From: Anaerolineales bacterium
GTDB lineage: Bacteria; Chloroflexota; Anaerolineae; Anaerolineales; UBA6663
Direction: 5' to 3'
Length of the DNA: 58,613 bases
NCBI GenBank assembly: GCA_020845955.1
Contig: JADLEU010000365.1
Coordinates: 1-58,613, forward strand
This document shows, piece by piece, positions 4,911 through 49,365 of this stretch. Both the position numbers and the translations under genes were made by a program. The stretch's first letter is position 1, and each line of letters opens with the position of its first letter. The notes below the pieces were generated by a model, which saw only the letters and a list, made by a program, of their open reading frames with translations, did not search any database and had not been told where the DNA came from.

Positions 4911-4935
4911 CGACCGCAAAGGGCAAGGATACGCG

Positions 4936-5646
4936 ATGGGTCATATTCAATCGGACGCGATAATGCCCGACCTGCCCGCGGCCGCTATTGCGCTGCGCCT
5001 GATGGCCTTCGCCCTCGGCGTCTACCCTAGCACTGTTGGGGTGGCCGAATTGCAAGGCGACTACGCCGCTGTGCGCGCCGATTACCGCGAGCGCATCGCC
5101 GGCGCGGTGCTGCGCTACCTGGTCCAGGACGGGGCGCGCGCGACCGCGTTCAAGACCGACGCCGGGCAGGCGGTGCTGGAGGCGTTCCCGGTGGCGTTCG
5201 GCACTGGGTATCTGGCCGGCTCTGGGTCAGGTGAAATCGACCCGGCGGACGACCGCTGGCTGACAGCGCGCATCAACGCCGAGATCGACCACGTGGCGGC
5301 GCTGTTCTTGGGCCTGCGCGAAATCAAGGCGGAGCAACTCCCGCCGGCCGACCTGGTGGCGGAGAGCGAGCGCCGGGCGGACGGCTACGCGCGGACGCTG
5401 GATGCGGTCCATCAGGAAGGCTTCGCGCGCGGACAGAAGAACCGGATGGCGACCTGGCGGCTGGGCCCGACCGAGCAGCACTGCGGCACGTGCGCGGCGC
5501 TGAACGGCCAGCGCCACCGGGTCAGTTGGTACCTGGCGCGCAACTACATCCCCGGCAAGCCGGGTAGCTCAACCGATTGTGGCGGATGGAAATGTGGATG
5601 CAGGTGGGAAACAGATGACGGCGAAGTGTTTGCGGTTCCAGGATAG
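4936..5646 (+). CDS. MuF-like minor head / morphogenesis protein
   Basis: A 236-residue protein. The C-terminal 60 residues carry the Cys/Gly pattern of MuF-type proteins: TEQHCGTCAALNGQRH, then a Trp, PGKPGSSTDCGGWKCGC and RW. The N-terminal part is helical. Such proteins sit inside the procapsid next to the portal and help its assembly. The ATG at 4936 has AAGGGCAAGGA just upstream; the frame also extends upstream through the portal gene, but that stretch (4780-4935) looks like a shadow of the portal. Cys pairs suggest a metal-bound or disulfide-stabilised fold. Confidence 0.8.
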   Translation: MGHIQSDAIMPDLPAAAIALRLMAFALGVYPSTVGVAELQGDYAAVRADYRERIAGAVLRYLVQDGARATAFKTDAGQAVLEAFPVAFGTGYLAGSGSGEIDPADDRWLTARINAEIDHVAALFLGLREIKAEQLPPADLVAESERRADGYARTLDAVHQEGFARGQKNRMATWRLGPTEQHCGTCAALNGQRHRVSWYLARNYIPGKPGSSTDCGGWKCGCRWETDDGEVFAVPG

Positions 5647-5653
5647 GGCGATC

Positions 5654-5869
5654 ATGGCTGACGTGATCGCACCGGACCAATTTGGTCCGGTGCCACTCGC
5701 CGAACTGTCGAGTCTGCGTCCGCGCTTGGACAATGGCGACGCGGCGCGTTACCTGGCCGTCCAGGAGCGCGTGTTCTTCGAGCTCCTGGGCGGCATCGAG
5801 CGCCATTTCGGGCGGGAAGAGGCGACGCGTATCGTCGGGGCGCTGGCCAAGAAGTATCCGCCATCTTGA
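5654..5869 (+). CDS. Small phage protein of unknown function
   Basis: A 71-residue protein of helical character, with a central VQERVFFELLGGIERHFG stretch. The start at 5654 is placed because the frame upstream overlaps the MuF-like gene end. The first of the dispersed palindromes (5669-5693) lies in its codons 6-13 and encodes APDQFGPV. The -35 box of the next promoter overlaps its stop codon. Confidence 0.55.
   Translation: MADVIAPDQFGPVPLAELSSLRPRLDNGDAARYLAVQERVFFELLGGIERHFGREEATRIVGALAKKYPPS
5669..5693. repeat. Type A palindrome, copy 1
   Basis: Perfect 12-bp arms, GCACCGGACCAA and its reverse complement, around a single T. It contains the core CGGACCAA/TTGGTCCG shared with 26665, 28816 and 36428, and lies inside a gene. 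Confidence 0.85.
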
Positions 5870-5893
5870 CACAAACCCGCAACCCGTGCTAAT
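5866..5893 (+). promoter_or_regulatory. Sigma70-type promoter upstream of the protease/scaffold gene
   Basis: TTGACA at 5866-5871 and GCTAAT at 5888-5893 are spaced by 16 bp. The -35 box is perfect, the -10 box matches at four positions. A leader of about 100 nt with two hairpins follows before the ATG at 6001. Confidence 0.6.
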
Positions 5894-5909
5894 GTGACGG
5901 TCAGCGGCC

Positions 5910-5998
5910 CCGCACGGTCCACCCGTGCGGCTCCCACTACCAGCACTACAACTCCCCTGCGGCCCCATCTGGCCCCGCCGGCTTATCCGGTTGGGGCC
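5910..5998 (+). promoter_or_regulatory. Structured leader with two hairpins before the capsid-protease gene
   Basis: Hairpin 1 pairs CCGCACGG (5910-5917) with CCGTGCGG (5923-5930). Hairpin 2 pairs GGCCCC plus CCGG (5971-5981) with CCGG plus GGGGCC (5987-5998) and ends two bases before the ATG at 6001, so it buries the only plausible ribosome-binding purines (GGGG). It has just TT after the stem, so it is a weak terminator; control of translation of the downstream capsid genes is at least as likely. Confidence 0.5.
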
Positions 5999-6000
5999 TT

Positions 6001-7368
6001 ATGTTTCCCGACATGCCTTCTCGCGAGTTTCTTTTCACCGAACTGAACGCCGCTGTCCTGCGGCCCGGCGCTGCCTTCGATGGCCTAGCCGTCGGGACCT
6101 TCCGCGACATGCGCGGCCAGGTGGTGATGATCAAGTCGGAAGAGTTGGAGACCTACGTCGCCAATACCCTGGCGGCGATCAACGTCACGCGCTCCGAGTC
6201 GGGCGAGTTGGTCGGGCTGCCGATTGACGCGCGTGACCACGATAAGGGTGACGGCGCGGGGTGGATCGTCGGCGCCGAGGTGGCCGGCACCGTGGTCCGG
6301 CTGTTCCCGCGCTGGACCAAGATCGGTCGCGAGCTGATCGGCGAGTCGATCCGGCGTTTCTTCAGCGCCACGGTCGACACCGCCAACAAGGTCATCCTGG
6401 GCGGGACGCTGACCAACTGGCCGGCGACGCGCGATCCCCAGGGCAAGATCCTGCTGCGACCTATTGAGCTGCAGGCCGGGCTGTTCGAGCTGAGCGAAGA
6501 CAGCCTGGACGAGCAGGCTATGCAGGTGCGGCAGGCCTTCCACGCCGCCCACCAGCCGCAGATGGATCCGCCTTACGTCTTGGAGGTCTACGCCGATTAC
6601 GTGATCTGCCGGTACGGCGATGCGCTGTACCGCGTGGCATACAAGCTGGCGGATGAGGGCGTGACCTTTGCCCCGGCCAGCGAATGGGTCGAGGTCGAAC
6701 CGGCTTACGTGGAGGCCGCGCGGCCGCCGGGTACTGGCGATGCAGAAGGAGTTCTCGAGATGGAGATCACCGAAGACAAGCTGAAGGAAATGATCGCCGG
6801 CGCCGTAACTGCGGCGCTTGCCAAGGGGTCCCCGCCCCCGCCGTCCGCGCCCCCGCCTACGGTTGACCTGTCCAGCTTTTTCAACCTGGACGGGCTGAGC
6901 GAGGAGGCCACGGCGGCGCGCAAGGCGCAGATCGAAGCGCACCTGTCGCTGGTACGCCAGCAGGCGCAACTTGAGTACCAGGCGCAACTCGCCCAGGTGC
7001 AGCGCGAAAGCGTCATCGCCGAGCTCTCCACGCGCGTGACCGGCGGCACGGCCGAGGCGCCGCGCGGCATCCCTGGCACGACGGCGGCCGAGCTGCAAGC
7101 GCACCTGCTCAAGCTGGAACCGGCTGATGCTAAGTGGTTCGGCGACCTGCTGGCCCGGATCGTCAAGGACGGCCTGGTCGAATTCGCTGAGCTGGGTCAC
7201 GGGCGCCGGCTGCAAGGGCTGACCCCCGTGCCTGAGCACGCGCGCGAGTCGCTCCAGGCTGCGCTGGACGCCGGCAACACCGCGGCGCAGTTCTTCGAGC
7301 TGGCCGGACTCGGCGACGCGGCCCAGTATGACCTGTCGGCGTTCAAGCCGGCTGCGAAGAAGGAGTAA
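6001..7368 (+). CDS. Capsid maturation protease fused to scaffold, Mu I-like
   Basis: A 455-residue protein. Residues 70-145 match the Mu I protease pattern: LPIDARDHDKGDGAGWI (His80 likely catalytic), a Ser at about 122, and GGTLTNWPATRD at 134-145, equivalent to the conserved LTNNP motif. The second half is a scaffold: an acidic helical segment (ITEDKLKEMIAGAVTAAL), a Pro-rich linker, and a Gln/Ala-rich coiled coil (about 300-345). Mu also couples protease and scaffold in one gene. ATG at 6016 is an alternative start. The gene sits between the MuF-like and capsid genes, as in Mu-type heads. Confidence 0.8.
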   Translation: MFPDMPSREFLFTELNAAVLRPGAAFDGLAVGTFRDMRGQVVMIKSEELETYVANTLAAINVTRSESGELVGLPIDARDHDKGDGAGWIVGAEVAGTVVRLFPRWTKIGRELIGESIRRFFSATVDTANKVILGGTLTNWPATRDPQGKILLRPIELQAGLFELSEDSLDEQAMQVRQAFHAAHQPQMDPPYVLEVYADYVICRYGDALYRVAYKLADEGVTFAPASEWVEVEPAYVEAARPPGTGDAEGVLEMEITEDKLKEMIAGAVTAALAKGSPPPPSAPPPTVDLSSFFNLDGLSEEATAARKAQIEAHLSLVRQQAQLEYQAQLAQVQRESVIAELSTRVTGGTAEAPRGIPGTTAAELQAHLLKLEPADAKWFGDLLARIVKDGLVEFAELGHGRRLQGLTPVPEHARESLQAALDAGNTAAQFFELAGLGDAAQYDLSAFKPAAKKE

Positions 7369-7371
7369 CCC

Positions 7372-7827
7372 ATGGCCGACCTGACCGCCAACGCCTACCT
7401 GCGCTTCCTGGGCGAGATCTACCAGGAGTTGTGGAACCTGGACAGCTCCGTCGCCAATCATCCCTACCGCGGCTCGCCAATGATCATCGACCAGTCGGCC
7501 GACACGGTCAACCTGACGGCCTACGTTGACGCCGTCGTCGTGGCCGCCACCGACGTTTTCATCGGCATCGCCGCCGAAGAATTGAACGTGGCTTCCGGCG
7601 CGGTCGAAGCCAACAGCCGCATCCAGGTGATCGTCGGGCCGACCATCGTCGGTTTCCAGAGCGCGGTGTTCACCAACGCCGATCTGGGCGCGACGGTCTA
7701 CATGTCGGACTCGGGCGTGCTCTCCACCACGGCGGCGGACAATCCGCAAATCGGGAAGCTCCACCGCGTCGAAGACGGCTACGCCTATGTCGAGCTGGTG
7801 ACGCCGCAGGTCTGCGCCGGCGCGTAG
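7372..7827 (+). CDS. Head decoration protein (putative)
   Basis: A 151-residue, mostly beta protein rich in Val/Ala/Thr, starting 3 bases after the protease/scaffold gene with GGAG upstream of the ATG. Position (between scaffold and major capsid), size and the pattern of short strands fit the capsid-stabilising proteins found at this spot in many siphoviruses. The C-terminal part (ADLGATVYMSDSG and KLHRVEDGYAYVEL) resembles small beta-tulip virion proteins. No single motif proves the role. Confidence 0.6.
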   Translation: MADLTANAYLRFLGEIYQELWNLDSSVANHPYRGSPMIIDQSADTVNLTAYVDAVVVAATDVFIGIAAEELNVASGAVEANSRIQVIVGPTIVGFQSAVFTNADLGATVYMSDSGVLSTTAADNPQIGKLHRVEDGYAYVELVTPQVCAGA

Positions 7828-7849
7828 GCCGGGGAAGGTTGAGACGAAC

Positions 7850-8749
7850 ATGACTGTAGCCGGAAATCTCCCCAAGCACCTGGAAGTCGCGGCCCGCACC
7901 GGTGTGCTCGGCGCCCGCGCGCGCGACGACATGCCTTACCGGATGGTCGCCACCGAAGTCGACCTGACGGCCACGACGACCACCTTCGTGGACCTGGGCG
8001 GCATGCCCATCCCGACCCGCAACGCGCGGCAGGTCGAGACCATGATCGAAAAGGGCAAGACCGTCGAGCCGGAGGACTGGTACCTCACGCTCAATATCTC
8101 CAAGAACGCAATCAACGACGACCAGACCGGCTCGCTGCTCCGCCAGTTCCGCGGCGTGCTGCCCGCCTTCCAGCGCCACATCAACAGCCACGCCTTCACC
8201 GTGCTCAACGCCGGCGACGCGGCGACGTACGGGCTCGGGCTGACCGGCAGCAACCTGTTCGCCAATAACCAGATCTACACCGGCGCGAAGTACCAGACGG
8301 CCCAGGACAATCTCAACTCCCTGGCGCTTTCTCTGGATAACTTCAACTCGGTCTGGGTGGCGGCGCGCCAGTTCCGCGACGACCAGGGGAACTTCTACAA
8401 CAACCCCTTCAACCTGCTGGTGACGTCGATCGCGCTCAACCAGGTCGGTTTCAATATTGCCGGCAACCCCAATGCCTACGACACGGCCAACCAGGAGCTC
8501 AACCCCTATCGCGGGACGCAGCACCTGGCCGTGCCCGAGTTCGACTCGACCGCCTGGGTGCTCATCGCCGACTCGGACGCGGCCGGCGCCAAGCCGCTCT
8601 ACGTGGCCATCCGCCAGCGGCCGCAGCTCAACGGCGCGCCGTGGTTTGACCCGCAGGCCGGCGACGGCGGGATGTGGTACTTCCCCTACCATGCGCGTTA
8701 TGTCATCGGGTACGGGGACAACCTGCTGGCCACGATGGGAAATTCTTGA
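7850..8749 (+). CDS. Major capsid protein, Mu T-like
   Basis: A 299-residue protein with AGGTTGAGA upstream of the ATG. KGKTVEPEDWYLTLNISKNA then INDDQTG is the signature stretch of Mu T-type capsid proteins, followed by the expected helical domain, a GSNLFANNQIY turn, and a C-terminal DPQAGDGGMWYFPYHARYVIG segment. It should form the HK97-fold shell after cleavage of the scaffold. The order MuF, I, decoration, T supports the assignment. A hairpin terminator follows at 8791-8816. Confidence 0.82.
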   Translation: MTVAGNLPKHLEVAARTGVLGARARDDMPYRMVATEVDLTATTTTFVDLGGMPIPTRNARQVETMIEKGKTVEPEDWYLTLNISKNAINDDQTGSLLRQFRGVLPAFQRHINSHAFTVLNAGDAATYGLGLTGSNLFANNQIYTGAKYQTAQDNLNSLALSLDNFNSVWVAARQFRDDQGNFYNNPFNLLVTSIALNQVGFNIAGNPNAYDTANQELNPYRGTQHLAVPEFDSTAWVLIADSDAAGAKPLYVAIRQRPQLNGAPWFDPQAGDGGMWYFPYHARYVIGYGDNLLATMGNS

Positions 8750-16241: not shown

Positions 16242-16451
16242 ATGTCGAGAAAGAAGAGCATACCTGCGGCGCCTGGCACACTGACTACCTTCCGCGTCCT
16301 GGTCACCTGCCGCTCAGACGAAACCGGGCAGGCTTACGCGCCGGGTGACACGCTCACCGGCGACGATTTCCCGCAGGAGGTGTTGGCCAATTGGCTGGAG
16401 ATCGGCGTGATTGAGCGGACTGCGCCGGAGGAAGGAGAGACGGATGGCTAA
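16242..16451 (+). CDS. Small phage protein of unknown function
   Basis: A 69-residue protein with an SH3-like strand pattern (TFRVLVTCRSDETGQAYAPG then DTLTGDDFPQEVLANWLEIG) seen in small proteins encoded near tail-tube genes. It overlaps the next gene by 8 bp. The start at 16242 is one base after the previous stop. Confidence 0.55.
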   Translation: MSRKKSIPAAPGTLTTFRVLVTCRSDETGQAYAPGDTLTGDDFPQEVLANWLEIGVIERTAPEEGETDG

Positions 16452-17175
16452 GAACCATCTTTTGCGCTGGGCGCGGCTATACGCCAACGGCTTCGACCTG
16501 TCGGGGGACGCGCGCACGTTCGCCAGCGTTGAGAACATGCTGGGCGAGATCGACCTCACCGGCTGGAGCGAAGCGGTCCACAACTTCATCGACGACGGCT
16601 ACCGCCAGGTGGGACTGCGCGGCTTCCAGGCCCTGCTCAACGACGCGGCCGGCCGGGCTTTCGCGATCCTAAAGACCAACCCGACCGGGGTCGAGATCTC
16701 CCTGCTGCTGGGCGGCGGAGCCGAACCGGTCGCCGGTGACCCGGCCTACCTGCTGGGCGCGGCACAGTTCCAGGACCGGGCGGGCCTGGACGGCGGGGCA
16801 TTCGTGATCAACGCCGACTTCCTGCCGCAGGCGGGAGTGGCGACGGACCACAACCCCTGGGGCGTGGTGCTTCACCCGGCCACGTCGCTCTCAGCCACCA
16901 CCAACGGCTCGACCATCGACCAGGCGGCCGGCTCGACCAACGGCGCGCACGCCAACCTGCACATGACCGCCTCCAGCGGCGGTACCTGGGCCTTTACGGT
17001 GGAGCATTCCACCAACGGCTCGGCCTGGTCCACGCTGATGGCGTTCACGATCAATGGTTCGGCGATAGCGTCTGAACGCGCGACTGTGACCGGCACCGTC
17101 AACCGCTACGTCCGGGCCGTGGCGACGCGCACGAGCGGCACGGTTACGCCGGTGTTTACGTTCGCCCGCAACTAG
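16444..17175 (+). CDS. Tail tube protein, long paralogue
   Basis: A 243-residue protein. Residues 1-125 form a tube-like domain (LYANGFDLSGDARTF, LTGWSEAVHNFIDDG, GAEPVAGDPAYLLGAAQF) that is clearly related to the next gene. From about 140 on it carries an extra beta domain of Ig/carbohydrate-binding character (GTWAFTVEHSTNGSAWSTLM). Lambda-like tubes often have decorated versions with an extra C-terminal domain. GGAAGGAGA lies before ATG 16444. Confidence 0.62.
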   Translation: MAKNHLLRWARLYANGFDLSGDARTFASVENMLGEIDLTGWSEAVHNFIDDGYRQVGLRGFQALLNDAAGRAFAILKTNPTGVEISLLLGGGAEPVAGDPAYLLGAAQFQDRAGLDGGAFVINADFLPQAGVATDHNPWGVVLHPATSLSATTNGSTIDQAAGSTNGAHANLHMTASSGGTWAFTVEHSTNGSAWSTLMAFTINGSAIASERATVTGTVNRYVRAVATRTSGTVTPVFTFARN

Positions 17176-18040: not shown

Positions 18041-18285
18041 CCCCGGCCGGCGGGCAGGCAATCTTCAAGCTCTGGCGCGCGCACGAGCGCGGCACGCTCC
18101 CGCGCGCCGGCGGATGGGAAGAGCAGCCCTTGGCTGTCATGGTGCAAATCGAGATGATGGACCTGGTCACGAACACCGTCCGCTACATGGCGCGCAAGGA
18201 TGCCGACTGGAACAACCTGACGCGGCTGCAGCGCGATCTGGTGAGCTGGCTGGAAGGCGATTCGGAAGGCGAAGCAAATGGCTGA
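17630..18285 (+). CDS. Tail assembly chaperone GT fusion made by -1 frameshift
   Basis: About 218 residues: the first 108 shared with the G-like protein up to Pro-Lys at the slip site, then 110 from the -1 frame (SVLAAVYEWASGG, PHGWQLAPDHLTPAGGQAIF, MDLVTNTVRYMARKDADW). The T-like part is helical and ends 8 bp inside the tape-measure gene. The -1 frame has no good start codon of its own near the slip site, its coding character begins exactly there, and the gene order is tube, G, GT, tape measure. These facts together make a programmed frameshift very likely. Confidence 0.82.
17947..17953 (+). other. Programmed -1 ribosomal frameshift site CCCAAAA
   Basis: Zero-frame codons read GTC-CCA-AAA-GCG, so the heptamer is C-CCA-AAA in the canonical X-XXY-YYZ register; after slipping, CCC-AAA-AGC continues into the T-like frame. 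Identical to the candidate site at 38115-38121. Confidence 0.82.
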
Positions 18286-20536
18286 CCAAATCCCGGTGGA
18301 GCTGATTGTCGAGGCGATTGCCAAGGGCTTTGACAAAATCGAAAGCAATGTCCGCGGCACGGGCAATGCTGCCGAACAGATGGGACGCCAGGCCAAGCAG
18401 ACCAATACGGCTGTCGGCGACCTTGACGGCGGGATGACTAAGCTGGAAAAGACCGTCGCCGGCACCCGGACCACGATTGGCCGCCTGGACGACGATTTGC
18501 ACGCCTTCGGCCGCAACCTGGGCAGCACGGCGGATTTGCTGAGCGGCCTGGGGGTCAATCTCCCTATCAACCCAATGCAGCTTTTTGGGCAGGCTGTGAA
18601 GGGCGCGGCGGATTTCACCAAGGCTGCCATTGGCGAAACGGTGGCGTACGCCAAGGAAGTGCGCGACCTAGGGCGCACGATTGGCGCCAGCGCCGAAGAG
18701 AGTTCCAAGCTCATCCAGGCCGCCGATGACGTGCTGGTTTCTTACAACTCGTTGACATCGGCGCTGGAAGCCGCCGTGCGCAAGGGGGTCAAACCCACCA
18801 TCGAAGGCTTGGGTGAGCTGGCCGACGAGTACAACGACATCCAGGACCCCATCACTCGAACTAAGTTCTTGATGGACAACTTTGGCCGCTCGGGCGCTGA
18901 CCTGGCCCCGCTGATGGAGTTGGGTGCGGAAGGTGTTCGGGAGTTGGGTGACGCGGCTAAAGCTGCTGGATTGGTAATGACCGAAGAGGCAATTGAAGCT
19001 GCGCGCGAATATGAAAAAGCATTGGACAAGGTTGAAGAGCGCGTGCTGATGGTCAAGCTTGCCATTGGCAATGCTCTTGTTCCAGCCCTGGTTGATGCCT
19101 CCAATGAAGTCGATCGGCATGCGGCAGCCTGGGATCTGCTCTGGAATACACAGGGACGATTCGTCATTATCAATGGCCAGTTAGTCGCCGTGCAAGCTCG
19201 GGAATTGAGCGGTCTTGCAGATATCAATGTCGAACTGGATACCTACCAGCAATTCCTGGAAGATACTGGCGTTGCCACGGTGGGCGTTACTCAGAAGACC
19301 GAAGACTGGGGCGACGTTTTCACGCAACTCAAGGAAAAGGCTGAGAAGGCTTCGAAGGAGATCACTCGCGCGATGAAAGATCTGGCCATCGTCGTCGGCG
19401 GCGCGGTCGACGTCGAAATGGACAACTTCGCGGAAAGCCAGGATGAACTGGAAGAGAAGATTGCCGCCACCCGCGCCGAGCTTGAAAAATACCAGGCCAT
19501 GCACGGCCAGGTGCGCATGGTCACCACCGATACAGCTGAGGCCAACCGCAACCTTATTATTGCTCAGGCTGGGGCCGAGACGGCGGCGCGCAATCTGGCC
19601 GAAGCTCAAGCCGACCTGGCAAAGAACATCGACCCCGACAAGCAATTGCAATTGCAGGCAGCGGTGGCACGGGCCGAGGGCGCCCTGATTACGGCATCGG
19701 GTAAGGTGGATGAATGGAACGGGAAGCTGGCGGAGAGCGGCAATACCTTCGTCACCGACTATTCCACCAAGATCGGAGAATTTGAAGGCGACCTGGGAGA
19801 GTTGGAAAGTGCTTACGGCGCAAATGCCGATGCGCACGAGGCGGCTGTCAAGCGGATGCTGTTCAACATGGCGATGCAGCGCGCCTACGAAGACGGCGAA
19901 TATTCGACGGCCGAAAAGACTTTCCTCAGCGAATTAGCTTCCGCCTGGCAGATCAAGGGCGCCGATACCGAACTGGCGATATTCGGCATTGACAACGCGC
20001 TCAAGGCATTAGCAGACGGCGGGAGCAAGGATGCCTTCATAGCAATCGGCGATCTGCTGACGCAACTGGGCATCCTGCCGCCCTCGGGGACGAGCTGGGA
20101 CTGGTTCTTCAACATCCAAACTTCGGGCGCCTTTCCCACGGCTGGCCCCAATCCCAACTCGCCCATTCCCGATGATACCGCACCGTCCGATCCCAATGCT
20201 CCGGCGTCGCCCTCGCGCTCGGCGCCCGGAAGTCCAGCGCCCGGGCCAGTCAATCCCGGAGATCCAACGCCCCTGGCCCGTGGCGCAGACTTCATCGTGC
20301 CGCCGGGTTATCCCAACGACTCCTTTCACATGCGCGTGCAGTCGGGCGAGCACGTGACCGTCGTCCCGGCCGGCCAGGCCGGCAACCGTGGCGGGCCAAT
20401 GGTCAGCCTGACCATCGGCGCAATCACCATCGTCACCGCCGCCACCGATGCGCGCGGCATCTCACAGGACCTGGCGCGCGAGCTGCGCGACGAGCTGGCC
20501 GCCCAGGGGCTGCTGGCGGCGCTGAGCAACGGATAA
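18278..20536 (+). CDS. Tape measure protein
   Basis: A 752-residue protein following the chaperone genes. Long alpha-helical stretches fill most of it. There are hydrophobic segments around 90-115 and a long coiled coil at about 370-500 with Ala/Glu/Lys/Gln heptads, then a Pro/Ser-rich linker (about 640-675) and a C-terminal domain. The protein sets tail length and is ejected with DNA. By the lambda rule of about 0.15 nm per residue, the tail would be about 110 nm long. The start at 18278 overlaps the GT stop. Confidence 0.85.
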   Translation: MADQIPVELIVEAIAKGFDKIESNVRGTGNAAEQMGRQAKQTNTAVGDLDGGMTKLEKTVAGTRTTIGRLDDDLHAFGRNLGSTADLLSGLGVNLPINPMQLFGQAVKGAADFTKAAIGETVAYAKEVRDLGRTIGASAEESSKLIQAADDVLVSYNSLTSALEAAVRKGVKPTIEGLGELADEYNDIQDPITRTKFLMDNFGRSGADLAPLMELGAEGVRELGDAAKAAGLVMTEEAIEAAREYEKALDKVEERVLMVKLAIGNALVPALVDASNEVDRHAAAWDLLWNTQGRFVIINGQLVAVQARELSGLADINVELDTYQQFLEDTGVATVGVTQKTEDWGDVFTQLKEKAEKASKEITRAMKDLAIVVGGAVDVEMDNFAESQDELEEKIAATRAELEKYQAMHGQVRMVTTDTAEANRNLIIAQAGAETAARNLAEAQADLAKNIDPDKQLQLQAAVARAEGALITASGKVDEWNGKLAESGNTFVTDYSTKIGEFEGDLGELESAYGANADAHEAAVKRMLFNMAMQRAYEDGEYSTAEKTFLSELASAWQIKGADTELAIFGIDNALKALADGGSKDAFIAIGDLLTQLGILPPSGTSWDWFFNIQTSGAFPTAGPNPNSPIPDDTAPSDPNAPASPSRSAPGSPAPGPVNPGDPTPLARGADFIVPPGYPNDSFHMRVQSGEHVTVVPAGQAGNRGGPMVSLTIGAITIVTAATDARGISQDLARELRDELAAQGLLAALSNG

Positions 20537-30826: not shown

Positions 30827-32575
30827 TCAGACTACAAACAGGGTCGGGCTGGCGCGGACCTGGTCGCCCTGGACTTCGGCCAGCCCGTTGCGGCGCAGGA
30901 CGCCCAGGTAAGTGCGAAACGTGCCGCCGCTCGCGGCGAAGCCGGCGGCCTCGCCCAGTTCGCCGGCGGCGATCCACTCCGGGTATCGCTCCACCAGCAC
31001 GTCGAGCATCCTGGCTTCGCCCGCGCGCAGACGGGCGCGCCACATGGCCAGCATTTCGGCGGTGGTGGCGGGCGCCGGGGGCACGGCGGCGCCCAGGTAG
31101 GCCAGGCCGGCCTCGGTGACGGAGACTTCCCCGCCCTGCTCGACGATGAGGCCGGCGCGCTTGAGCACGCCGAAGTACGTGCGGAAGGTGCCGCCGCGCG
31201 GGGCGAAGCCGGAGAGCGTTCCGAGCTGGGAGACCGTGTAGCGCGCTGGGTGGCGCTGGGCGAGAGCCTGCAGCATCTTGCGTTCACCGGCGCGCAACGC
31301 GATGTCGCTCTCGGCTGGCGGCGCCTCCGGCGGCCGCGGCGCGGGCCGTGCGGCCGGGGCCGGATCCGCGTACGCGTGGTGCGGTCTTCGACCTGGCAGC
31401 GCCGCACTTTGACGTTGGACCACGGCGCGCAGGGCCTCCCCGACTTCCCCGGCGCCGGTGCGCAGCGCCTGGCTTGCGCCCAGCAGCCCATCGCCCAGCT
31501 TGCCCAGCCCCTCTGCAATCACGGCCATCTGTCCGACGGCCGACTCGAGTCGATTCACTTCGCCGTCCTTGAATACCGGGATCTCGACGCGCTCGACAAT
31601 ACGCTCGGGCAGCGGCGCCTGCACGGGCCGGGTGCGCAGCTGCTGCTCCAGTTCGCGGACGCGGCGCTGAGCGGCGGCGAGCTCGTCGGTCTCGCGCTGC
31701 ACGACGCGCGGCAGGTCGCCCAAGGACGCGACGATCTGCTGGATGGCGCCCGAGGCCGGCGGGACCTCGAGCAGGTGGCGCTGGCCGGGGCGCGGGTGGG
31801 TGGTGACGACCGGGCCGGTCCGGAAACGGTGCACGCCGCGGCCTAGCGCCGGCCCGAAGCAGTAGAACTCGCCGGGCTCGAGGTCGCGCAGCGCCAGGCG
31901 GCCGGCCTTGTCCAGGCCGAGCATGTCGCCTGCGCGGGCCTGGTCGACGTCGAGGGTGATGCCGCCGATGAAGACGTTCTTGGCGTCGCCGATGGCGTCT
32001 TTGGCCAGCTTGGAGATGCGCTGGGTGGCCAGGGCGCCGCAGACGGCGCGCTTGCGGCCGGCCGACATCAGGAAGTTGACGGCGCGGCGCGACTGGGCCA
32101 CAGGCGAGTCGGCGCGGCCGGCGGCGGTCTCGGGAGCGAAGTTGTGGGCCTCGTCGATGGGGACGTAGATGGGGTGATAGCCGCTCTTGGGTGTGTTCAT
32201 CAGCCCGTCGATGAAGGGGGCCAGGAAGGCGCGGCGCGCGTCCCAGTCGCCCAGGTCGTAGAGGTCGATGATGGCCGAGACGCGCAGCTCGGAGAGCTTG
32301 GCGGCGAGCTTGCGGGCGGTGCGGGCCTCGGCGGCGACCTCGCCGCCCGAGCCCACCAGCAGCATGTCGAATTTCTCGCGCAGCGTGTTGAACTCGCCCT
32401 CGGGGTCGATGACGATCACCTGGACCTGGCGGGCGATCTGCTCGATCAGCCGGCGCAAGAGCCAGCTCTTGCCGCCTCCGGAGCTGGCGGTGATCACCTG
32501 GCGCGAGTCGATCAGCGTGGGCACGTCGATGTGAAGCGGGCCGGCCTGGCCCTGGCCGAGCGTTACGGCGGTCAT
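30827..32575 (-). CDS. HerA-type ATPase with two C-terminal winged-helix repeats
   Basis: A 582-residue protein. HerA/FtsK-type ATPase core: Walker A at 30-37 (ASSGGGKS), IVIDPEGEF at 54-62, Walker B with acidic pair at 137-142 (YVPIDE), and a sensor-like CGALATQRISK segment. After a coiled coil (about 320-400) come two copies of a winged-helix module (AGERKMLQALAQRHPARYTV...GGTFRTYFGVLKRAGL and AGEARMLDVLVERYPEWIAA...GGTFRTYLGVLRRNGL). It overlaps the ThiF gene by one base. It is likely a hexameric DNA translocase working with the PRTRC cassette. A degenerate type B palindrome is at 31361. Confidence 0.8.
   Translation of the reverse strand: MTAVTLGQGQAGPLHIDVPTLIDSRQVITASSGGGKSWLLRRLIEQIARQVQVIVIDPEGEFNTLREKFDMLLVGSGGEVAAEARTARKLAAKLSELRVSAIIDLYDLGDWDARRAFLAPFIDGLMNTPKSGYHPIYVPIDEAHNFAPETAAGRADSPVAQSRRAVNFLMSAGRKRAVCGALATQRISKLAKDAIGDAKNVFIGGITLDVDQARAGDMLGLDKAGRLALRDLEPGEFYCFGPALGRGVHRFRTGPVVTTHPRPGQRHLLEVPPASGAIQQIVASLGDLPRVVQRETDELAAAQRRVRELEQQLRTRPVQAPLPERIVERVEIPVFKDGEVNRLESAVGQMAVIAEGLGKLGDGLLGASQALRTGAGEVGEALRAVVQRQSAALPGRRPHHAYADPAPAARPAPRPPEAPPAESDIALRAGERKMLQALAQRHPARYTVSQLGTLSGFAPRGGTFRTYFGVLKRAGLIVEQGGEVSVTEAGLAYLGAAVPPAPATTAEMLAMWRARLRAGEARMLDVLVERYPEWIAAGELGEAAGFAASGGTFRTYLGVLRRNGLAEVQGDQVRASPTLFVV
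31361..31384 (+). repeat. Type B palindrome, degenerate copy
   Basis: CGGATC then CGCGTACGCG, T and GGTGCGG. The core is intact and both arms have one mismatch. Read leftward it encodes His-His-Ala-Tyr-Ala-Asp-Pro in a linker of the HerA-type protein. Confidence 0.7.
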
Positions 32576-33471
32576 CAGGCTTTCCCCTTTGCCACCAACT
32601 CGCGCTCGTCGAGCCCGGTCGCCTCGGCTAGCGTCGGCAGGTCCAGCTGGCGCACCCGCGTGCCGCCGTAGGCCAGGTCGAAGTCGAGCGCGAACCAGCG
32701 CACCGTGCCCAGGAGGAAATCGTGCAGGAGCGCGAGGGCCCAGGCGGCCGCCATGCGGTTGACCATCAGGCCCTGAGTGCCGGCCTCGGTGAGTTCCGCG
32801 CAACTGGGCATGCGGCCGTTCGCACCGTGGCCGTTCTTCCCCGGCTTAGGCTTTGCGGGCTTGACCGCGACTACCAGGTCCGGGTTGATGAGACTCGGGG
32901 ACGGCAGGTCGCGCAGCATGCCCAGGCCCACGGCGCCGCGCAGATCCTTGGCAGCGACGCGGTTGCCCAGTGACACCTGGCCGGCGTGCTCCGAGTTGCC
33001 GGCGTCGAGCCACCACAGCCGGCCGTGCGCCTTCCCCATGGCGCTGGCGATCACGGCCCGGGCCTCGCGGTTGTCGACGGCGCCGACGACCACATTCAGA
33101 GCCGCGTGGTGGTTGGACAGCAGACTCTCATCGTCGGCCACGCGGCGCACGCCAGCGCCGATGGCCAGCCGGAAGGCGGCGTTGAGCCGGGCGGCGAGAA
33201 CGGCGGCCTTCGGCTGGCCAACGTCTCCAACAGAGAACAACTGCCGGCCGACGTTGCGCCGCTCGACGCGGTCGGGGTCGACGAACGTCATCTCGACCGG
33301 GGTGCCGCGCGCGTCCAGCGCCTGGGTGACGGCCACCAGGCCGGAGGCGATGTGGCTGCCCGTTCCACCGCAACCGATCAAGGTCAGGTGCACGCGCTCG
33401 AAGCGGGAGAGCTGCAGGCGCAGGAGCGGCGCGGCAGCCAGACTAAGCGTTGACTTCTGCTTCGGCTTCAT
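32575..33471 (-). CDS. PRTRC-type ThiF family protein (E1-like)
   Basis: A 298-residue Rossmann protein. LIGCGGTGS (31-39) is the adenylate-binding Gly-rich loop of ThiF/E1 enzymes, FVDPDRVERRNVGRQLF (63-79) holds the ribose-binding Asp and the Arg finger, and KAAVLAARLN follows. Cys224 in MPSCAEL is the candidate catalytic Cys. This pattern, including the C-terminal LMVNRMAAAWALALLHDFLL helix, is that of the ThiF protein of PRTRC cassettes. E1-like enzymes adenylate the C-terminus of a ubiquitin-like protein. It lies next to JAMM, E2-like and Ubl genes. Start ATG 33471 overlaps the upstream gene by 29 bp. Confidence 0.85.
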   Translation of the reverse strand: MKPKQKSTLSLAAAPLLRLQLSRFERVHLTLIGCGGTGSHIASGLVAVTQALDARGTPVEMTFVDPDRVERRNVGRQLFSVGDVGQPKAAVLAARLNAAFRLAIGAGVRRVADDESLLSNHHAALNVVVGAVDNREARAVIASAMGKAHGRLWWLDAGNSEHAGQVSLGNRVAAKDLRGAVGLGMLRDLPSPSLINPDLVVAVKPAKPKPGKNGHGANGRMPSCAELTEAGTQGLMVNRMAAAWALALLHDFLLGTVRWFALDFDLAYGGTRVRQLDLPTLAEATGLDERELVAKGKA

Positions 33472-34162
33472 CGCATCGCTCACACAGGTCGTACTCCGTC
33501 CACCAGGCTGCCCCATCGCCCACGCGCCGCCCGCACTGGCGGCAGCGGCCGAATGTGTCCACAAAGCACCCCAGCCCGTCGAAGATCGCCGTCGCTCGCA
33601 CGGGCATCGTGTGCCCATACACGCCCACCCGCGCGGCGATCTGCGGCTGGCGTGTGTCGAGTCTGCCAATAACGACATAGAAGCGCAGGCCCTGCTCATC
33701 GGCGTCGTCGGTAGCGCTAAAAAACGCCGGCATCGAGTTGTGCGAATGCAGGTCGACGCTGGCGCCGGCCAGGTCCAGGAAGGTGACCGCGCCGGGGCTG
33801 GCCAACTGCGCCGGGCGGGCGCAGGCCCAGCCGCCGTAGCTGTTGCGCGCCAGTGGGTCGGCCACGAGCTGGTACATGGCCTCGCTGGGCATGGCCTTGC
33901 GGGCGCTGGCCAGGATCGAGTCGAGCCAGGCCTGCGGGACGCGGGGCACGGCCAGGCGCGCGTAGGGCTCGACCATGGCCAGGCCGGAGAGCGGCCGCAG
34001 GCTGGGGGCGACCGGCACGAGCGCCTCGATGCGGCCGTCGGCGGCGCGCACGTATAGGCCGCCGGCGCCGACCACGTACTGCACGAAGCCCCGGATCGGC
34101 GGCAGCTCGGGGCCGGTCGCCAGCACGCAACTGGCCAGCTCGAAGTCGTCAGGAGCCATCAT
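33443..34162 (-). CDS. PRTRC protein A-like JAMM metalloprotease with zinc ribbon
   Basis: A 239-residue protein. HSH-NSMPAFF-SATD (139-152) is a complete JAMM motif, His-x-His-x7-Ser-x2-Asp, and follows the strand LAGASVDLHS; the rest of the domain (LVADPLARNSYGGWACARPA) fits PRTRC protein A. The C-terminus has a four-Cys zinc ribbon (CRQCG...CERCDEA), which I would not expect in the minimal family. JAMM proteases remove or trim ubiquitin-like proteins. ATG 34162 overlaps the stop of the E2-like gene (ATGA), so the two are coupled. Confidence 0.85.
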   Translation of the reverse strand: MMAPDDFELASCVLATGPELPPIRGFVQYVVGAGGLYVRAADGRIEALVPVAPSLRPLSGLAMVEPYARLAVPRVPQAWLDSILASARKAMPSEAMYQLVADPLARNSYGGWACARPAQLASPGAVTFLDLAGASVDLHSHNSMPAFFSATDDADEQGLRFYVVIGRLDTRQPQIAARVGVYGHTMPVRATAIFDGLGCFVDTFGRCRQCGRRVGDGAAWWTEYDLCERCDEAEAEVNA

Positions 34163-35031
34163 GCCGCTAACTCCACTTCGTCTTCCACACCACCCCAGAC
34201 GGCCGGGTCGTCGTCTTCGTCATCCCAATCGTTCCATTCGGGGTCGGGCTCGACGTCGTCATCGTCGTCGTCCCAATCCAGGTACGCCTGGCCCTGGCCC
34301 TGGCCCCGGGCGAAGTCGCCCAGGGTCAGGCCGGCGCGCTTGAGTTGATCAGCCGGGAATTCTGTCTGCCCGCGCAGGCTGGCCAGGAAGTCGAAAAGCG
34401 GACCGGGCGCGGCGATACGGCGCTCGCTCTGGTGGTCGTTGAAGCGCGACTCCCAGAAGATGGCGGCCGCCTGGTGGATGGTGGCCGGGGAGGCCTTTGG
34501 GAACGGCTCATTGCCGGCACAGATCGCCCCGTTGTCGGAGATGTTGGGCAGCGGGGCATGGTAGAGCGGTGCGCGCTCGGTCCGCTCCAGGCAGGCGAAG
34601 ACGTAATAGCTGCCGCCCCGGCCGGCCAGGACCAGGTTAGGCAGCGGGATCTCCAGCGGCCGCTCGTGCCGGCCGGCGCGCCAGTAAATCGTGCGGACGC
34701 CGGCCGGCAGCCACAGCCCGACGCGCTCCGGCTCGTCGCGTTTTCCGGCCGCCTGCCAGAACAGGACGTCGGGCGGCAGGAGCCCCGTGCTCACGCCTGA
34801 CAGGCCGCCGAAGCAGTTGGCGACGTCGCGGGCGGACACCGGGTAGGTGACCACCGGCTTGCCTCGGGCGTCGTAGCGGGTCAGCCACAGGGACTCGGCC
34901 GTGGCGGTGAGCGTCACGCGCGCCACGCGGTCGAAGGCTTCCTTGGGGAGCTTGACAGGCTGTGGCTTCGCCCCGGGCTTGACCTTTGCCGCTTTGCGAG
35001 TGGCCTTGCGCGCGGGTTTACGACCGGCCAT
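34159..35031 (-). CDS. PRTRC protein B-like, E2-like protein
   Basis: A 290-residue protein. After a basic Lys/Ala/Pro N-terminus, strands and helices lead to YHAPLPNISDNGAICAGNEP (157-176), with Cys171 at the site of the E2 catalytic Cys, then HQAAAIFWESRFNDHQSERR. This matches protein B of PRTRC cassettes, which comparative genomics treats as E2-like. The C-terminus is highly acidic (runs of Asp). The product could accept the ubiquitin-like protein from the ThiF protein. Start ATG 35031 was chosen since upstream in-frame codons lie in the previous gene. Confidence 0.8.
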   Translation of the reverse strand: MAGRKPARKATRKAAKVKPGAKPQPVKLPKEAFDRVARVTLTATAESLWLTRYDARGKPVVTYPVSARDVANCFGGLSGVSTGLLPPDVLFWQAAGKRDEPERVGLWLPAGVRTIYWRAGRHERPLEIPLPNLVLAGRGGSYYVFACLERTERAPLYHAPLPNISDNGAICAGNEPFPKASPATIHQAAAIFWESRFNDHQSERRIAAPGPLFDFLASLRGQTEFPADQLKRAGLTLGDFARGQGQGQAYLDWDDDDDDVEPDPEWNDWDDEDDDPAVWGGVEDEVELAA

Positions 35032-35884
35032 TGCGCTTCTCCTTTGCAGCGAACACGCTTGCCAGCGTCGCGCGCCTGCCCGCCGGCCGGGTGATGGTCT
35101 GCAGCACGAGCGGGTCGCCGCGCAGCGCGGCGTCGAGCGTGCGCAATCGCTCGCGCGGCTTCTCATCCACGTACACGGCCAGGCTATAGATGTGATCCCA
35201 CATCGGCCCGGCGCGCTTGTACTGCTGTTCCAGCGCCCGGATCTCGGAAAGCCGCCAGTCCGGATTGGGGCTCGCGTCAGCGGTCTCGAAGTCGGTATCC
35301 AGGTAGTAGGTGCGCGTCGCGCCCTGCACGTACAGGCACAGGTCGGGGAGCCCGTTCCAGGGCTTGACCCACTCGCGCCCGCGCGGCCGGCGGATGGTGT
35401 ACGGCTGGCTCTGCTCGTGCAGGAGCGGCGCGGCCGCGTGCACGCCCGGCCACCAAGTCATCACCCACCGGTCCAGGTTGCCGGCCGCCTCGTGCAGGGA
35501 CAGGCCGTCGTTTGGACTCTCCATACCGAAGCCGCCGGCGACCGTGGCCACGGCCAGGTCGAGTGCGGGCGACGAGTTCTCCCAGTGCCAGCCGTTGACG
35601 GCGACAGGGATGCCGCGCGACCAGGCCCAGGACAGCGACTCGAGCTCGTCGACCTCGACCATGATGCTCCACAGGTTGAGCGGGAAGCGGCGCATCACGT
35701 TGCTCAGCAGCGCCCGGTAGCAGCCGCGCGGGTCGGCCAGTTTCAGCCGCTTCGCTCTTGCCGGATCAAGGGCCTGCATGAGCTTCAGCATGCCCTGTGC
35801 CGCGGCCAGATCCTGCACCCGGTCGAAGAGCCAGGTCCGGCGGTAGGCGGTGGCCGGCAGCGCCGGCGCGGCCGGTAATGCCAT
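35018..35884 (-). CDS. PRTRC-cassette protein of unknown function (protein F slot)
   Basis: A 288-residue protein between the Ubl and E2-like genes. It is Trp-rich with segments FPLNLWSIMVEVDELESLSW, AWSRGIPVAVNGWHWENSSP and LPDLCLYVQGATRTYYLDTD. Position and general pattern resemble the poorly characterised PRTRC protein F, but I cannot prove it. Starts overlap upstream stop (ATG 35884 or 35890). It may be a structural part of the complex. Confidence 0.55.
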   Translation of the reverse strand: MALPAAPALPATAYRRTWLFDRVQDLAAAQGMLKLMQALDPARAKRLKLADPRGCYRALLSNVMRRFPLNLWSIMVEVDELESLSWAWSRGIPVAVNGWHWENSSPALDLAVATVAGGFGMESPNDGLSLHEAAGNLDRWVMTWWPGVHAAAPLLHEQSQPYTIRRPRGREWVKPWNGLPDLCLYVQGATRTYYLDTDFETADASPNPDWRLSEIRALEQQYKRAGPMWDHIYSLAVYVDEKPRERLRTLDAALRGDPLVLQTITRPAGRRATLASVFAAKEKRNGRS

Positions 35885-35886
35885 GT

Positions 35887-36339
35887 TCACAGCAGCGGGC
35901 TCACGTCCAGCTTGGCGGCCGCCTGCGTCCAGTCCGGGCGAACCGCGGCCAGGTCGCGCCCCAACTCCTCGGCGGCCTGCGCCTGGGAGAGCAGCCGCTG
36001 CCCGGCGCGCTCGAAGTCGCGGCCGGGGCCGGGCGGACTGCCCAGGGCGACGTCGATGAACCAGGCCGGGGCGATGGGCGTCTCGCGTACCCGCAGCAGC
36101 CGCTTGAAAACGACGGCCGCGGCCGCGTCGCCGGCCCCCCCACGGGGGCCGTGGCCTTTCGTCCCAGCCTTCTTGCTGTAGACCCAGATCTTCTTGTCCT
36201 TCTCCGTCTTGGTCTCAATCTTGGGATCGGCCAGCTCGGGGAAGAAGCGCCGCATCTGTTCGGTCACCTGGGCTTGAGTCATGCCCTCGGGCACAGGGAT
36301 GCGCTTCTGGCCATACTCCGCAAACACAGTCTCAGCCAT
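35887..36339 (-). CDS. PRTRC protein C-like ubiquitin-like protein with C-terminal extension
   Basis: A 150-residue protein. Residues 1-62 (VFAEYGQKRIPVPEGMTQAQ, MRRFFPELADPKIETKTEKD, IWVYSKKAGTKG) match PRTRC protein C, which as I recall is only about 70 residues and ends soon after GTKG. Here GTKG (59-62) is followed by 88 more residues: a Gly-rich link and a helical domain (AGQRLLSQAQAAEELGRDLA). This suggests a precursor or fusion that the JAMM protease might cut after GTKG. Start ATG 36339 has GGAGGGCAGCG upstream. The fold is inferred. Confidence 0.75.
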   Translation of the reverse strand: MAETVFAEYGQKRIPVPEGMTQAQVTEQMRRFFPELADPKIETKTEKDKKIWVYSKKAGTKGHGPRGGAGDAAAAVVFKRLLRVRETPIAPAWFIDVALGSPPGPGRDFERAGQRLLSQAQAAEELGRDLAAVRPDWTQAAAKLDVSPLL

Positions 36340-36754
36340 CGCTGCCCTCCAACTCCAACGCCAGTTGTGCTTCGTCGGCGCCGCCTCCGGGCGAGTCGCC
36401 CTCGATCTCGGGCAGGTCGGGCGCGGCCGGACCAATTGGTCCGCTTTCTCCATGCTCAGCGTCCGCTTCCGGATCTGCCGGCATTTCCGCTTTTGCCGCT
36501 TTTGCCCGCTTGCCAGACTTGGCGGTCTTTCGGCCCTTGCCGACTTGACCGGCGCCCATGGCCTTCGGCGCGGGCTTGCTCGCCGCGGTCAGCAGCTCGC
36601 CGTAGGCCTGGCGCTCCAGGGCCTGCCAGTCGGCGAATACGCCTGACCGCAGGGACACGAGTTCCCCCTCCGGGCCGGCGCCGACGGTGATCGGGCGCTT
36701 GCCGTTCTTGAACGGGTAGATGGTGGTGATGATCACGATGGGTTTGTCGCTCAC
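36332..36754 (-). CDS. PRTRC-cassette small protein (protein E slot)
   Basis: A 140-residue protein with an N-terminal beta part (IVIITTIYPFKNGKRPITVG, then ELVSLRSGVFADWQALERQA) and a disordered, Lys/Ala-rich and then acidic tail. It lies just upstream of the Ubl gene, with an 8-bp overlap. The position is that of the variable PRTRC protein E, but I see no certain match. A type A palindrome lies in the disordered tail at 36428. Confidence 0.5.
   Translation of the reverse strand: MSDKPIVIITTIYPFKNGKRPITVGAGPEGELVSLRSGVFADWQALERQAYGELLTAASKPAPKAMGAGQVGKGRKTAKSGKRAKAAKAEMPADPEADAEHGESGPIGPAAPDLPEIEGDSPGGGADEAQLALELEGSDG
36428..36443. repeat. Type A palindrome, copy 4
   Basis: CGGACCAATTGGTCCG, identical to 26665-26680, placed in a disordered part of the gene, where it reads Ser-Gly-Pro-Ile-Gly-Pro on the minus strand. 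Confidence 0.85.
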
Positions 36755-47790: not shown

Positions 47791-47823
47791 CTGATGTTGA
47801 TCTTACCCTAGGCTGTCAACCTC

Positions 47824-49365
47824 ATGCCCAACTCCTCCAATGGCCACAAAGCCACAGACTTGTCCCGCGCCGCGATCTACCGCCGCGTCTCATCCGAGGT
47901 GCAGGGGAAGCGTGTTAGTCCGGAAGAGCAACTGGCGGACTGCGAAGCCTACGCCCAGGGTCGCGGCTACACGGTCGTGGCGGTGTACTCCGATATAGAG
48001 CGCTACCGCTCCGCCGGGCGGCTGGTGGAGCCCTCCGGCACGCGCACTGACCGCCCAGATTTCCAGCGCTTGCTGGCGGACGCGCGGGATGGAAAGCTCG
48101 ACGTCGTCATCGCCTGGAAGGAAGACCGGCTCTACCGCGGTGTCAAGCCCGCGGTGCTGGTGGGTGACTTGCTGGAAGAGACCCCCGTCACGGTCGAGCT
48201 GGTCAAAGAGACCTTCGACCGCAAGATGTTGTTCATCAAGAGCGCTATCGGGAAACTGGAGATCGAGAGCATTCGCGAGCGGACCGAGATGGGCATGAAG
48301 GCCCGGATGCGCAAAGGGCTCATTCACGGCGGGCCGGTTCCGGCCGGCTACGTCGGGGTGAAGGGGGATGATGGGCAAACCTGCGGCTACGTGCTCGACC
48401 CGGCCTGGCGCGGTTTCTTCGACGACCTGGCCCGCCTGTACATCACCCGTCTGCCGCTGGCGGAGATCGGCCGGCGGCTGTCGCCCGACCCGCGCACTGG
48501 CCGGCCGTGGCTGGATTCGACGCTGAGCTACATCCTGCGCAACCCATTCTATCGCGGCCAGATTGCCTACGGATGGCAGAACGGGAAGCCTGAGTTTATC
48601 GTCCCCGGCCGGCACGCGCCCGCCTGGGACGCGGAAACGTGCGCGGCCGTCGAGCGCGAACTGGCCCGCCGCGGCGGCCGGCACAATGGCCCGCGCAGCC
48701 GCGCCCTGCTGTCGGGAATACTGCGCTGCGGCCTGTGCGGCCAAACCATGGCGTGCGGAACAACGCACGTCCCGGCGCGCAATGGCCAGCGCCGCTACGC
48801 CTACCGCTACTACGGCTGTGCTCGCCCGGTGATGGTCCGCGACGGCCGCTGGCATGGGCGCCGCACCCACGCGGCGAATTACATCAACGAGACGAAATGC
48901 CTGCGGCTCATCCAGGGTCTCCTGGCTGGCCTCGATGCGTCGCAGATCGACGGCTGGCTGACGCAGCTGGCCATGGCGCTTGGCGGGCCGACGCCGGATG
49001 ATGGGACGCGGCGCGCGCGCCTGGAAGCCGAAGCCGAGACGCTTCGCGCGAGACTGGCCGACCTGGCCGTGGGTCTCGATGGCGTGCGGAACGCCTCGCC
49101 CGCGGCAACCGAGACGATCCTGTCTGCGATCACCACTACCGGCAAGCAACTTGACCAGGTGCGGGCAGAGCTGGATGAGTTGGGGCGCCGGCAGTCGGCC
49201 GCGCCGGATTTAGCGCAAGCCCGCGACGCCATCATGCGCCTGGTCGGGGAACTGGAGGTATGGGATGAGCCGGCCACGCTGCAGCCGCTGCTGCAGACCG
49301 CGTTTCCCGCGCTGTACGTGGCTGGCGGCCAGTTTGTTTCTCCCGTCCCTGTGTGGGAGAATTGA
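47824..49365 (+). CDS. int: Large serine integrase
   Basis: A 513-residue protein. Catalytic domain: YRRVSSEVQG with Ser23 as nucleophile, a CxxYAQGRGYTVVAVYSDI-type strand, and DGKLDVVIAWKEDRLYRG. The recombinase domain (MRKGLIHGGPVPAGYVGVKG, LAEIGRRLSPDPRTGRPWLD, YILRNPFYRGQIAYG) follows, then a zinc ribbon (CGLCGQTMAC...YYGCARP) and a coiled coil (RLEAEAETLRARLADLA). It recombines attP and attB without other factors for integration; a directionality factor is needed for excision. It lies at the end of the prophage, next to attR. Confidence 0.93.
   Translation: MPNSSNGHKATDLSRAAIYRRVSSEVQGKRVSPEEQLADCEAYAQGRGYTVVAVYSDIERYRSAGRLVEPSGTRTDRPDFQRLLADARDGKLDVVIAWKEDRLYRGVKPAVLVGDLLEETPVTVELVKETFDRKMLFIKSAIGKLEIESIRERTEMGMKARMRKGLIHGGPVPAGYVGVKGDDGQTCGYVLDPAWRGFFDDLARLYITRLPLAEIGRRLSPDPRTGRPWLDSTLSYILRNPFYRGQIAYGWQNGKPEFIVPGRHAPAWDAETCAAVERELARRGGRHNGPRSRALLSGILRCGLCGQTMACGTTHVPARNGQRRYAYRYYGCARPVMVRDGRWHGRRTHAANYINETKCLRLIQGLLAGLDASQIDGWLTQLAMALGGPTPDDGTRRARLEAEAETLRARLADLAVGLDGVRNASPAATETILSAITTTGKQLDQVRAELDELGRRQSAAPDLAQARDAIMRLVGELEVWDEPATLQPLLQTAFPALYVAGGQFVSPVPVWEN

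Follow-up and report, generated by a model that had tools for sequence, protein, structure and literature searches.

In the fusions of ubiquitin with ribosomal proteins, the N-terminal ubiquitin is freed by a cut after its last glycine, which yields two useful products. Precursors of eukaryotic ubiquitin-like proteins (Ubls) carry C-terminal tails, and in the BilABCD system a JAMM deubiquitinase trims BilA and thereby exposes its reactive glycine, according to the portion of PMC11354881 considered here. Among the systems that Iyer et al. described in 2006, type 6d is the closest to the locus reported below: In the passages on this type (PMC1779556), its Ubl is small, stands alone, and has a conserved glycine at the C-terminus, and the JAB protein is predicted in general terms to process and remove Ubls. 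From the gene content and the species list we read type 6d as the system that NCBI names PRTRC.

The window analyzed here, the whole stretch of 58,613 nucleotides from an Anaerolineales bacterium, looks like a tailed phage or prophage over 3414-27020 (plus strand) and 29291-57342 (mostly minus strand), with the following marker genes:

7802-8746, major head protein (phrog_371)
16411-17172, major tail protein (phrog_9522)
18245-20533, tape measure protein (phrog_2854)
47812-49362, integrase (phrog_95)

The window also encodes a DnaB helicase and RecT; an end repeat was looked for in it and not found. Its Ubl gene is part of a cassette of the PRTRC type (Iyer 2006 '6d') whose E1, E2, and JAMM are intact, and a phage-borne cassette of this composition is notable in itself. 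On the minus strand the E-like gene lies upstream of the Ubl gene, which is followed downstream by the F-like, E2-like, JAMM, and E1 genes:

36332-36754, minus strand, E-like protein at the PRTRC E position (assigned purely by position)
35887-36339, minus strand, Ubl precursor gene P0002, 150 aa (translation; leave-out HMM, E=7e-9)
35018-35890, minus strand, F-like protein at the PRTRC F position (assigned purely by position)
34159-35031, minus strand, E2-like protein of the Prok-E2_D type, PRTRC B-like, with Cys172 (PF14460, 73.9 bits, cut-off 25)
33443-34162, minus strand, JAMM metalloprotease, PRTRC A-like, HSHNSMPAFFSATD (PF14464, 30.8 bits, cut-off 25)
32575-33447, minus strand, E1/ThiF-like activating enzyme, start codon uncertain (TIGR03736, 148.4 bits, cut-off 144.75)

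The E1 thus falls within the PRTRC ThiF family. The E2-like protein, which reaches the PF14460 cut-off, stays below that of TIGR03737 (67.6 against 131.45 bits), and the JAMM protein, which lies above the PF14464 cut-off, scores 69 bits with the PRTRC A model TIGR03735 (cut-off 101.8, E=3.7e-19). In the Pfam and NCBIfam scans the F-like protein matched no family and the E-like protein none above cut-off; nor was a PRTRC-type ParB gene present among the nine proteins scanned. A phmmer search of the PDB with the window JAMM gave no credible relative, and PADLOC, applied to the five core cassette proteins, matched the E1 alone and this to generic E1-E2 models only.

The sequence-only reading had described a Ubl gene with GTKG at residues 59-62 and 88 residues beyond it, and the minus-strand translation of 150 aa bears this out; a plus-strand frame over 35887-36339 was rejected as a gene. 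We regard P0002 as a real gene for the following reasons: Its start ATG at 36339 is preceded by GGAGGG a few bases 5', it overlaps the preceding ORF P0007 and is abutted by the F-like gene, and a Ubl HMM trained on 80 relatives, without the window and without its nearest relative L003, matches P0002 at E=7e-9 among 1,257 ORFs. The match stops exactly on GTKG (G62), which divides the gene as follows:

36154-36339, minus strand, beta-grasp Ubl domain, residues 1-62 (AlphaFold model; HMM end at G62)
36154-36165, minus strand, GTKG, residues 59-62, with the predicted cut after Gly62 (sequence; the gene end in 12 of 12 JAMM-less relatives)
35890-36153, minus strand, 88-aa C-terminal extension with a Gly-rich link and a predicted helix (sequence)

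The extension begins with the Gly-rich residues HGPRGGAGDAAAA, in agreement with the link that had been proposed; the helical domain proposed behind it is at most weakly suggested by a single low-confidence helix at 107-133 in the AlphaFold model of P0002 (mean pLDDT 51.9, pTM 0.35, 8 sequences). This model has the order strand-strand-helix-strand-strand over residues 5-56, beta-grasp-like within 1-56, at a pLDDT of about 66-78, which drops mostly below 50 from residue 59 onward. Strands and helix follow a similar order in the model of an Anabaena-type relative (L081, mean 64.5), where helices occupy 79-131 and GTKG falls within a stretch of low confidence (58-77). In both models, the glycine junction lies in a low-confidence region that is probably flexible. 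A Foldseek search with the Ubl model of P0002 returned nothing at E<=0.001, the best hit being a PB1 domain at 0.064.

P0002 itself has no Pfam or NCBIfam match at E<=1, which places it below the curated cut-offs of TIGR03738 (PRTRC protein C) and PF14454 (Prok_Ub); in the same protein C family test L003 gave 0.0029 and L062 44.0 bits against a cut-off of 45.95. It is homologous to the protein C family via intermediates, namely the 80 relatives of the leave-out HMM (E=7e-9), whose gathering seeds include TIGR03738 matches such as L017 and L009. The TIGR03738 model spans 66 positions, the last of which aligns with the terminal glycine in Burkholderia.

For comparison, cassettes were gathered by their E2 (PF14460), together with plasmid and viral matches, part of the matches being fetched. 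E2 matches occurred in 32 of 400 genomes from the phylum of the window (Ca. Chlorohelix of the Chloroflexota is among its members), in 19 of 158 genomes of one class within it, in 10 of 386 Cyanobacteria genomes, and in 21 of 195 and 39 of 291 genomes of cyanobacterial orders, samples that overlap. Viral scans with the E1 of L017 and L007 gave no match, and a match in L002 (E=7e-4) was dropped as chance, there being no cassette among its listed ORFs. The counted set consists of 80 operons, free of duplicates, that encode E2, an intact E1, and a Ubl; Cyanobacteria and Chloroflexota are heavily represented in it, and 8 of the 80 rows come from other named phyla. For L185, whose Ubl was missed by the HMM, the annotated ORF at the protein C position was used, which ends in G. 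Left out were duplicates with the same E2 (L050, L095, L141, L166, L170, L175, L181, L183), operons with a distant or decayed E2 (L072-L076, L102, L126-L132), those in which no Ubl was found (L004, L008, L013, L053, L056, L058, L059, L071, L101, L103, L123, L148, L152, L154, L155, L157, L158, L159, L171), those with an E1 that is not intact (L006, L012, L051, L077, L079, L100, L108, L111, L119, L156, L180), and L120 with a JAB coverage below 70% (tail 81, JAMM motif present). Short loci from the genome search were omitted as well (L019-L048, L084-L093, L115-L118, L133-L140): Most of them are copies of longer fetched stretches, and a few matches are not represented by such stretches.

Among the operons excluded for their E1, a tail without an intact JAMM is found in L006 (83 residues), L180 (77; contig end), L100 (2), and L111 (2), a tail with JAMM in L012, L108, and L119, and neither in L051 (contig end) and L156; L077 (tail 82) runs off the end of its contig, and the JAB of L079 (tail 82) is truncated. 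L100 and L079 were rejected as counter-examples: In two separate deletions of like kind (L079 6693-7694, L100 6832-7791), the start of JAB was fused to later E1 sequence with loss of the JAMM motif and the E1 GxGGxG, and the systems look dead.

Several loci are of interest in their own right. The JAMM gene of Brasilonema L012 is split by an apparent group II intron with reverse transcriptase (4461-7292), and the cassette of Oscillatoria PCC 7112 (L105, 7379-10576) adjoins genes annotated as a DncV-like nucleotidyltransferase and a SAVED-domain protein. Two cassettes, one with and one without JAMM, are present in each of the cyanobacterial genomes G1136 (L160/L168) and G1158 (L163/L174, both on contig C59). 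A cyanobacterial group (L103, L152, L154, L157, L158, and others) has neither Ubl nor JAMM near E2 in the stretch examined; E2 and E1 are kept, with E1 2.3-3.4 kb downstream of E2, and in L103 and L158 an F-like gene is present as well. No Ubl was found in the stretch examined of the Deinococcus loci L008 and L013, and tblastn located protein C elsewhere on these plasmids. The distant E2_D subfamily of the window's phylum (L072-L076, L126-L132) has longer JAB ORFs, often of 290-360 aa, and the Ubl HMM found no Ubl there.

Within the 80 counted operons, the E2 residue Cys172 is invariant, as are the E1 cysteine (in SCAEL), N63, R66, K78, and D123 (numbered from the domain start); the E1 GxGGxG glycines are likewise present in 80/80, GxGGxG being a selection criterion. 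The JAMM residue E94 is a glutamate in 68/68 aligned JAMM proteins and was not among the selection criteria; H, H, S, and D are invariant in the 68 JAMM-bearing operons, too, but were a selection criterion. From established knowledge of these families, we take the conserved E1, E2, and JAMM residues to be the catalytic ones.

The extension is no peculiarity of this genome, a notion that we rejected because relatives have it too. L003, an IMG/VR contig with 37-38% identity over the Ubl protein, has GRKG and 95 further residues, and fusions of 136-155 aa are encoded on plasmids of Gloeothece, Chroococcidiopsis, Anabaena, Brasilonema, and Leptolyngbya. The extension is the common state in cassettes from cyanobacteria and Chloroflexota, whereas most of the few cassettes examined from Pseudomonadota and Bacteroidota encode a short form: The Ubl ends in GIKG in Tunicatimonas, KTKG in Methylomonas, GAKG in P. 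nitroreducens, GDRG in P. fluorescens pQBR55, and GAKGSHA in Burkholderia. Longer forms, both with JAMM, are those of Polaromonas (72 aa after the glycine) and Manganitrophus (37 aa). The expectation that protein C stops after GTKG thus holds for most Pseudomonadota and Bacteroidota forms examined and fails for the family as a whole, with tails of at least 37 aa in 57 of 80 operons; nor is the extension unusual in cyanobacteria and Chloroflexota. The sequence-only reading had proposed this very comparison and had named a scarcity of extension-less homologues as an outcome that would speak against it. Such forms are indeed the exception in our survey, which has no bearing on cleavage.

The Ubl of Planktothrix (L015) and that of Pseudanabaena (L016) have the glycine as their last residue, and the helical domain is encoded by the ORF that follows. 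Because in Planktothrix the split Ubl coincides with the lack of a JAMM between E2 and E1, we tested whether the tail depends on JAMM. In the counted set, all 12 operons without JAMM have no residue after the terminal Ubl glycine, whereas residues beyond it are present in 66 of the 68 operons with JAMM: The tail comprises at least 37 aa in 57 operons and 2-4 aa in 9, and is absent in 2 (L014, L016). One long tail, the 370 aa of L068, runs in frame into the next gene, and this reading frame is probably frameshifted. Fisher's test for JAMM against tail gives 1.5e-12, a value that ignores relatedness. On a quick IQ-TREE tree of E1+E2 with long branches, JAMM status changes 7 times; starred branches yield 6 independent pairs, of which an average of 5.6 show tail and JAMM changing in concert and none shows opposite changes. 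The corresponding sign test has a median p of 0.031 (range 0.031-0.125), with about 6 independent contrasts in total, and loses significance with fewer pairs. Restricted to long fusions (at least 37 aa), the test gives 3.2 of 6 with a median p of 0.25 and is not significant, since the tails of some JAMM-bearing sisters comprise no more than 2-4 aa.

These short tails occur, among the counted operons, with JAMM only. NGSKG is followed by VK (L105, L162), VR (L167), AR (L165), or AIKL (L164) in JAMM-bearing sisters, while the Ubl ends in NGSKG in the JAMM-less L015, L160, and L163; correspondingly, AGTKG is followed by ARA in JAMM-bearing L063 versus an AGTKG end in JAMM-less L121. Such sister pairs, distinguished by JAMM and by 2-4 residues of tail, constitute natural controls, and they weigh against a reading in which the only task of JAMM is deconjugation. 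The losses of JAMM and tail would then be linked indirectly, for instance as joint marks of a system that has decayed or serves another use, or the Ubl would be matured by a different protease. We consider this reading highly improbable: Even tails of 2-4 aa are confined to JAMM-bearing operons in the counted set, sister cassettes differ in just these residues, and plain decay is no explanation since an intact E1 was required for counting. It would, however, accommodate the JAMM kept in L014 and L016, whose Ubl needs no processing and where JAMM therefore has another use, probably deconjugation. It would also fit the other Prok-JAB proteins that are encoded elsewhere in 7/7 JAMM-less genomes tested (one of them, G1132, with a broken E1); as these include the JAMM of the second cassette in G1136 and G1158, action in trans is possible.

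The fate of the helical domain was followed with HMMs of fused tails. An HMM of 19 cyanobacterial tails matches separate ORFs in L015, L160, and L163 (about 1e-18) and in L083 (9e-9), and an HMM of seven Chloroflexota tails those in L122, L055, L057, and L121 (about 1e-11) and in L063 (5e-9). The helical ORF comes after the Ubl in the JAMM-less L015, L160, L163, L122, L055, L057, L121, and L083, in the last of these some 360 bases further on. The helical domain is hence a separate gene in three JAMM-less groups, and therefore both products are probably used. Of the separate helical ORFs whose ends were examined, 21/21 end in GF or GW, and in 30 of 55 fused tails the last two residues are G and one of F, W, Y, I, or V. 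In the four JAMM-less Pseudomonadota and Bacteroidota operons these HMM searches detected no separate helical ORF. The tails of the window and L003 do not match the HMMs of the main helical family, nor did an HMM of these two tails find that family; the extension of the window's lineage is therefore equivalent by position and length only.

The split at the glycine bears on the alternative, raised by the sequence-only reading, that the Ubl stays permanently joined within a two-domain protein and is neither cleaved nor conjugated. It is consistent with P0002 having no database family, with the low confidence of the tail in the model, and with L065/L066, which lack the last glycine (GTKA) and keep the fusion. 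We nevertheless regard a fixed fusion as improbable because the gene is divided precisely behind the glycine in relatives that lack JAMM; moreover, GxKG is conserved although it lies inside the chain, and the E1 and E2 cysteines are conserved in 80/80 operons. Specifically, the junction residue is a glycine in 54 of 57 long fusions, while the next position is variable; in place of a KG junction, L065/L066 read GTKA and L054 reads AGSLG.

We therefore return to JAMM processing after GTKG, which the sequence-only reading had put forward and which is favored by the tailless Ubls of 12/12 JAMM-less versus 2/68 JAMM-bearing operons and by the covariation on the tree. Based on sequence, gene order, conserved active-site residues, and covariation, we consider it likely that cleavage by JAMM behind Gly62 both matures the Ubl and sets the C-terminal part free. 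The tailless JAMM-bearing L014 and L016, the aberrant junctions of L065/L066 and L054, the other Prok-JAB proteins of the JAMM-less genomes, and the unmatched tail of the window weigh against it. The cassette's own JAMM would hydrolyze the peptide bond between GTKG and the following H; the Ubl, now with a free C-terminal glycine, would be adenylated by the E1, carried by the E2, and presumably conjugated to targets, and the free 88-aa C-terminal protein would arise in an amount equal to the Ubl and might have a role of its own. In relatives that lost JAMM, the precursor gene would have become a Ubl gene ending exactly at the glycine, followed in three groups by the putative helical partner as a separate gene. 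In a variant compatible with the JAMM cut, the extension would serve solely as a disposable propeptide, holding the Ubl in an inactive state up to its removal. Eukaryotic Ubl precursors have such tails, as the cited portion of PMC11354881 states, and tails of 2-4 aa exist in the surveyed operons; we still judge the variant unlikely, given that JAMM-less relatives retain the helical part as a separate gene and that 21/21 split ORFs examined end in GF or GW.

The JAMM reading turns the general JAB prediction of 2006 into a specific, testable one that names the exact bond and the enzyme, and it draws attention to an overlooked helical family, often with a C-terminal GF or GW, as a regular partner in cyanobacteria and Chloroflexota. 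As a tentative overall picture, it is possible that a full Ubl cassette resides in a tailed phage whose host is related to the Chloroflexota, with one JAMM cut providing the modifier and a second working protein in equal amounts, and with loss of JAMM in relatives being repaired by gene fission at the glycine. This suggests that the strategy of fusing ubiquitin to a partner arose in bacterial mobile elements, too.

The extended Ubl, its fission, and the covariation with JAMM are absent from the passages on type 6d in PMC1779556, and no description of the extended form was found among titles and abstract openings of the open-licence literature, which argues weakly for its novelty. With PRTRC/6d, as characterized in those passages (PMC1779556), the cassette shares a Ubl, a JAB with an N-terminal domain, E1-like and E2-like proteins, and a helical protein in one operon; the 6d Ubl is standalone there, whereas that of the window has an extension. 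With BilABCD it has E1, E2, Ubl, and JAMM in common, but BilA has two Ubl domains in the cited portion of PMC11354881, whereas P0002 has, according to its model, a single one within residues 1-56 and a separate C-terminal domain. A further difference from BilABCD as outlined there is that the domain joined to the Ubl here is a gene of its own in relatives. The eukaryotic ubiquitin-ribosomal fusions, in the terms of the same portion (PMC11354881), resemble P0002 in the predicted cut after the glycine and in the two products; we claim no common ancestry of the C-terminal part, and, in contrast to the eukaryotic fusions, the protease is here encoded in the same operon.
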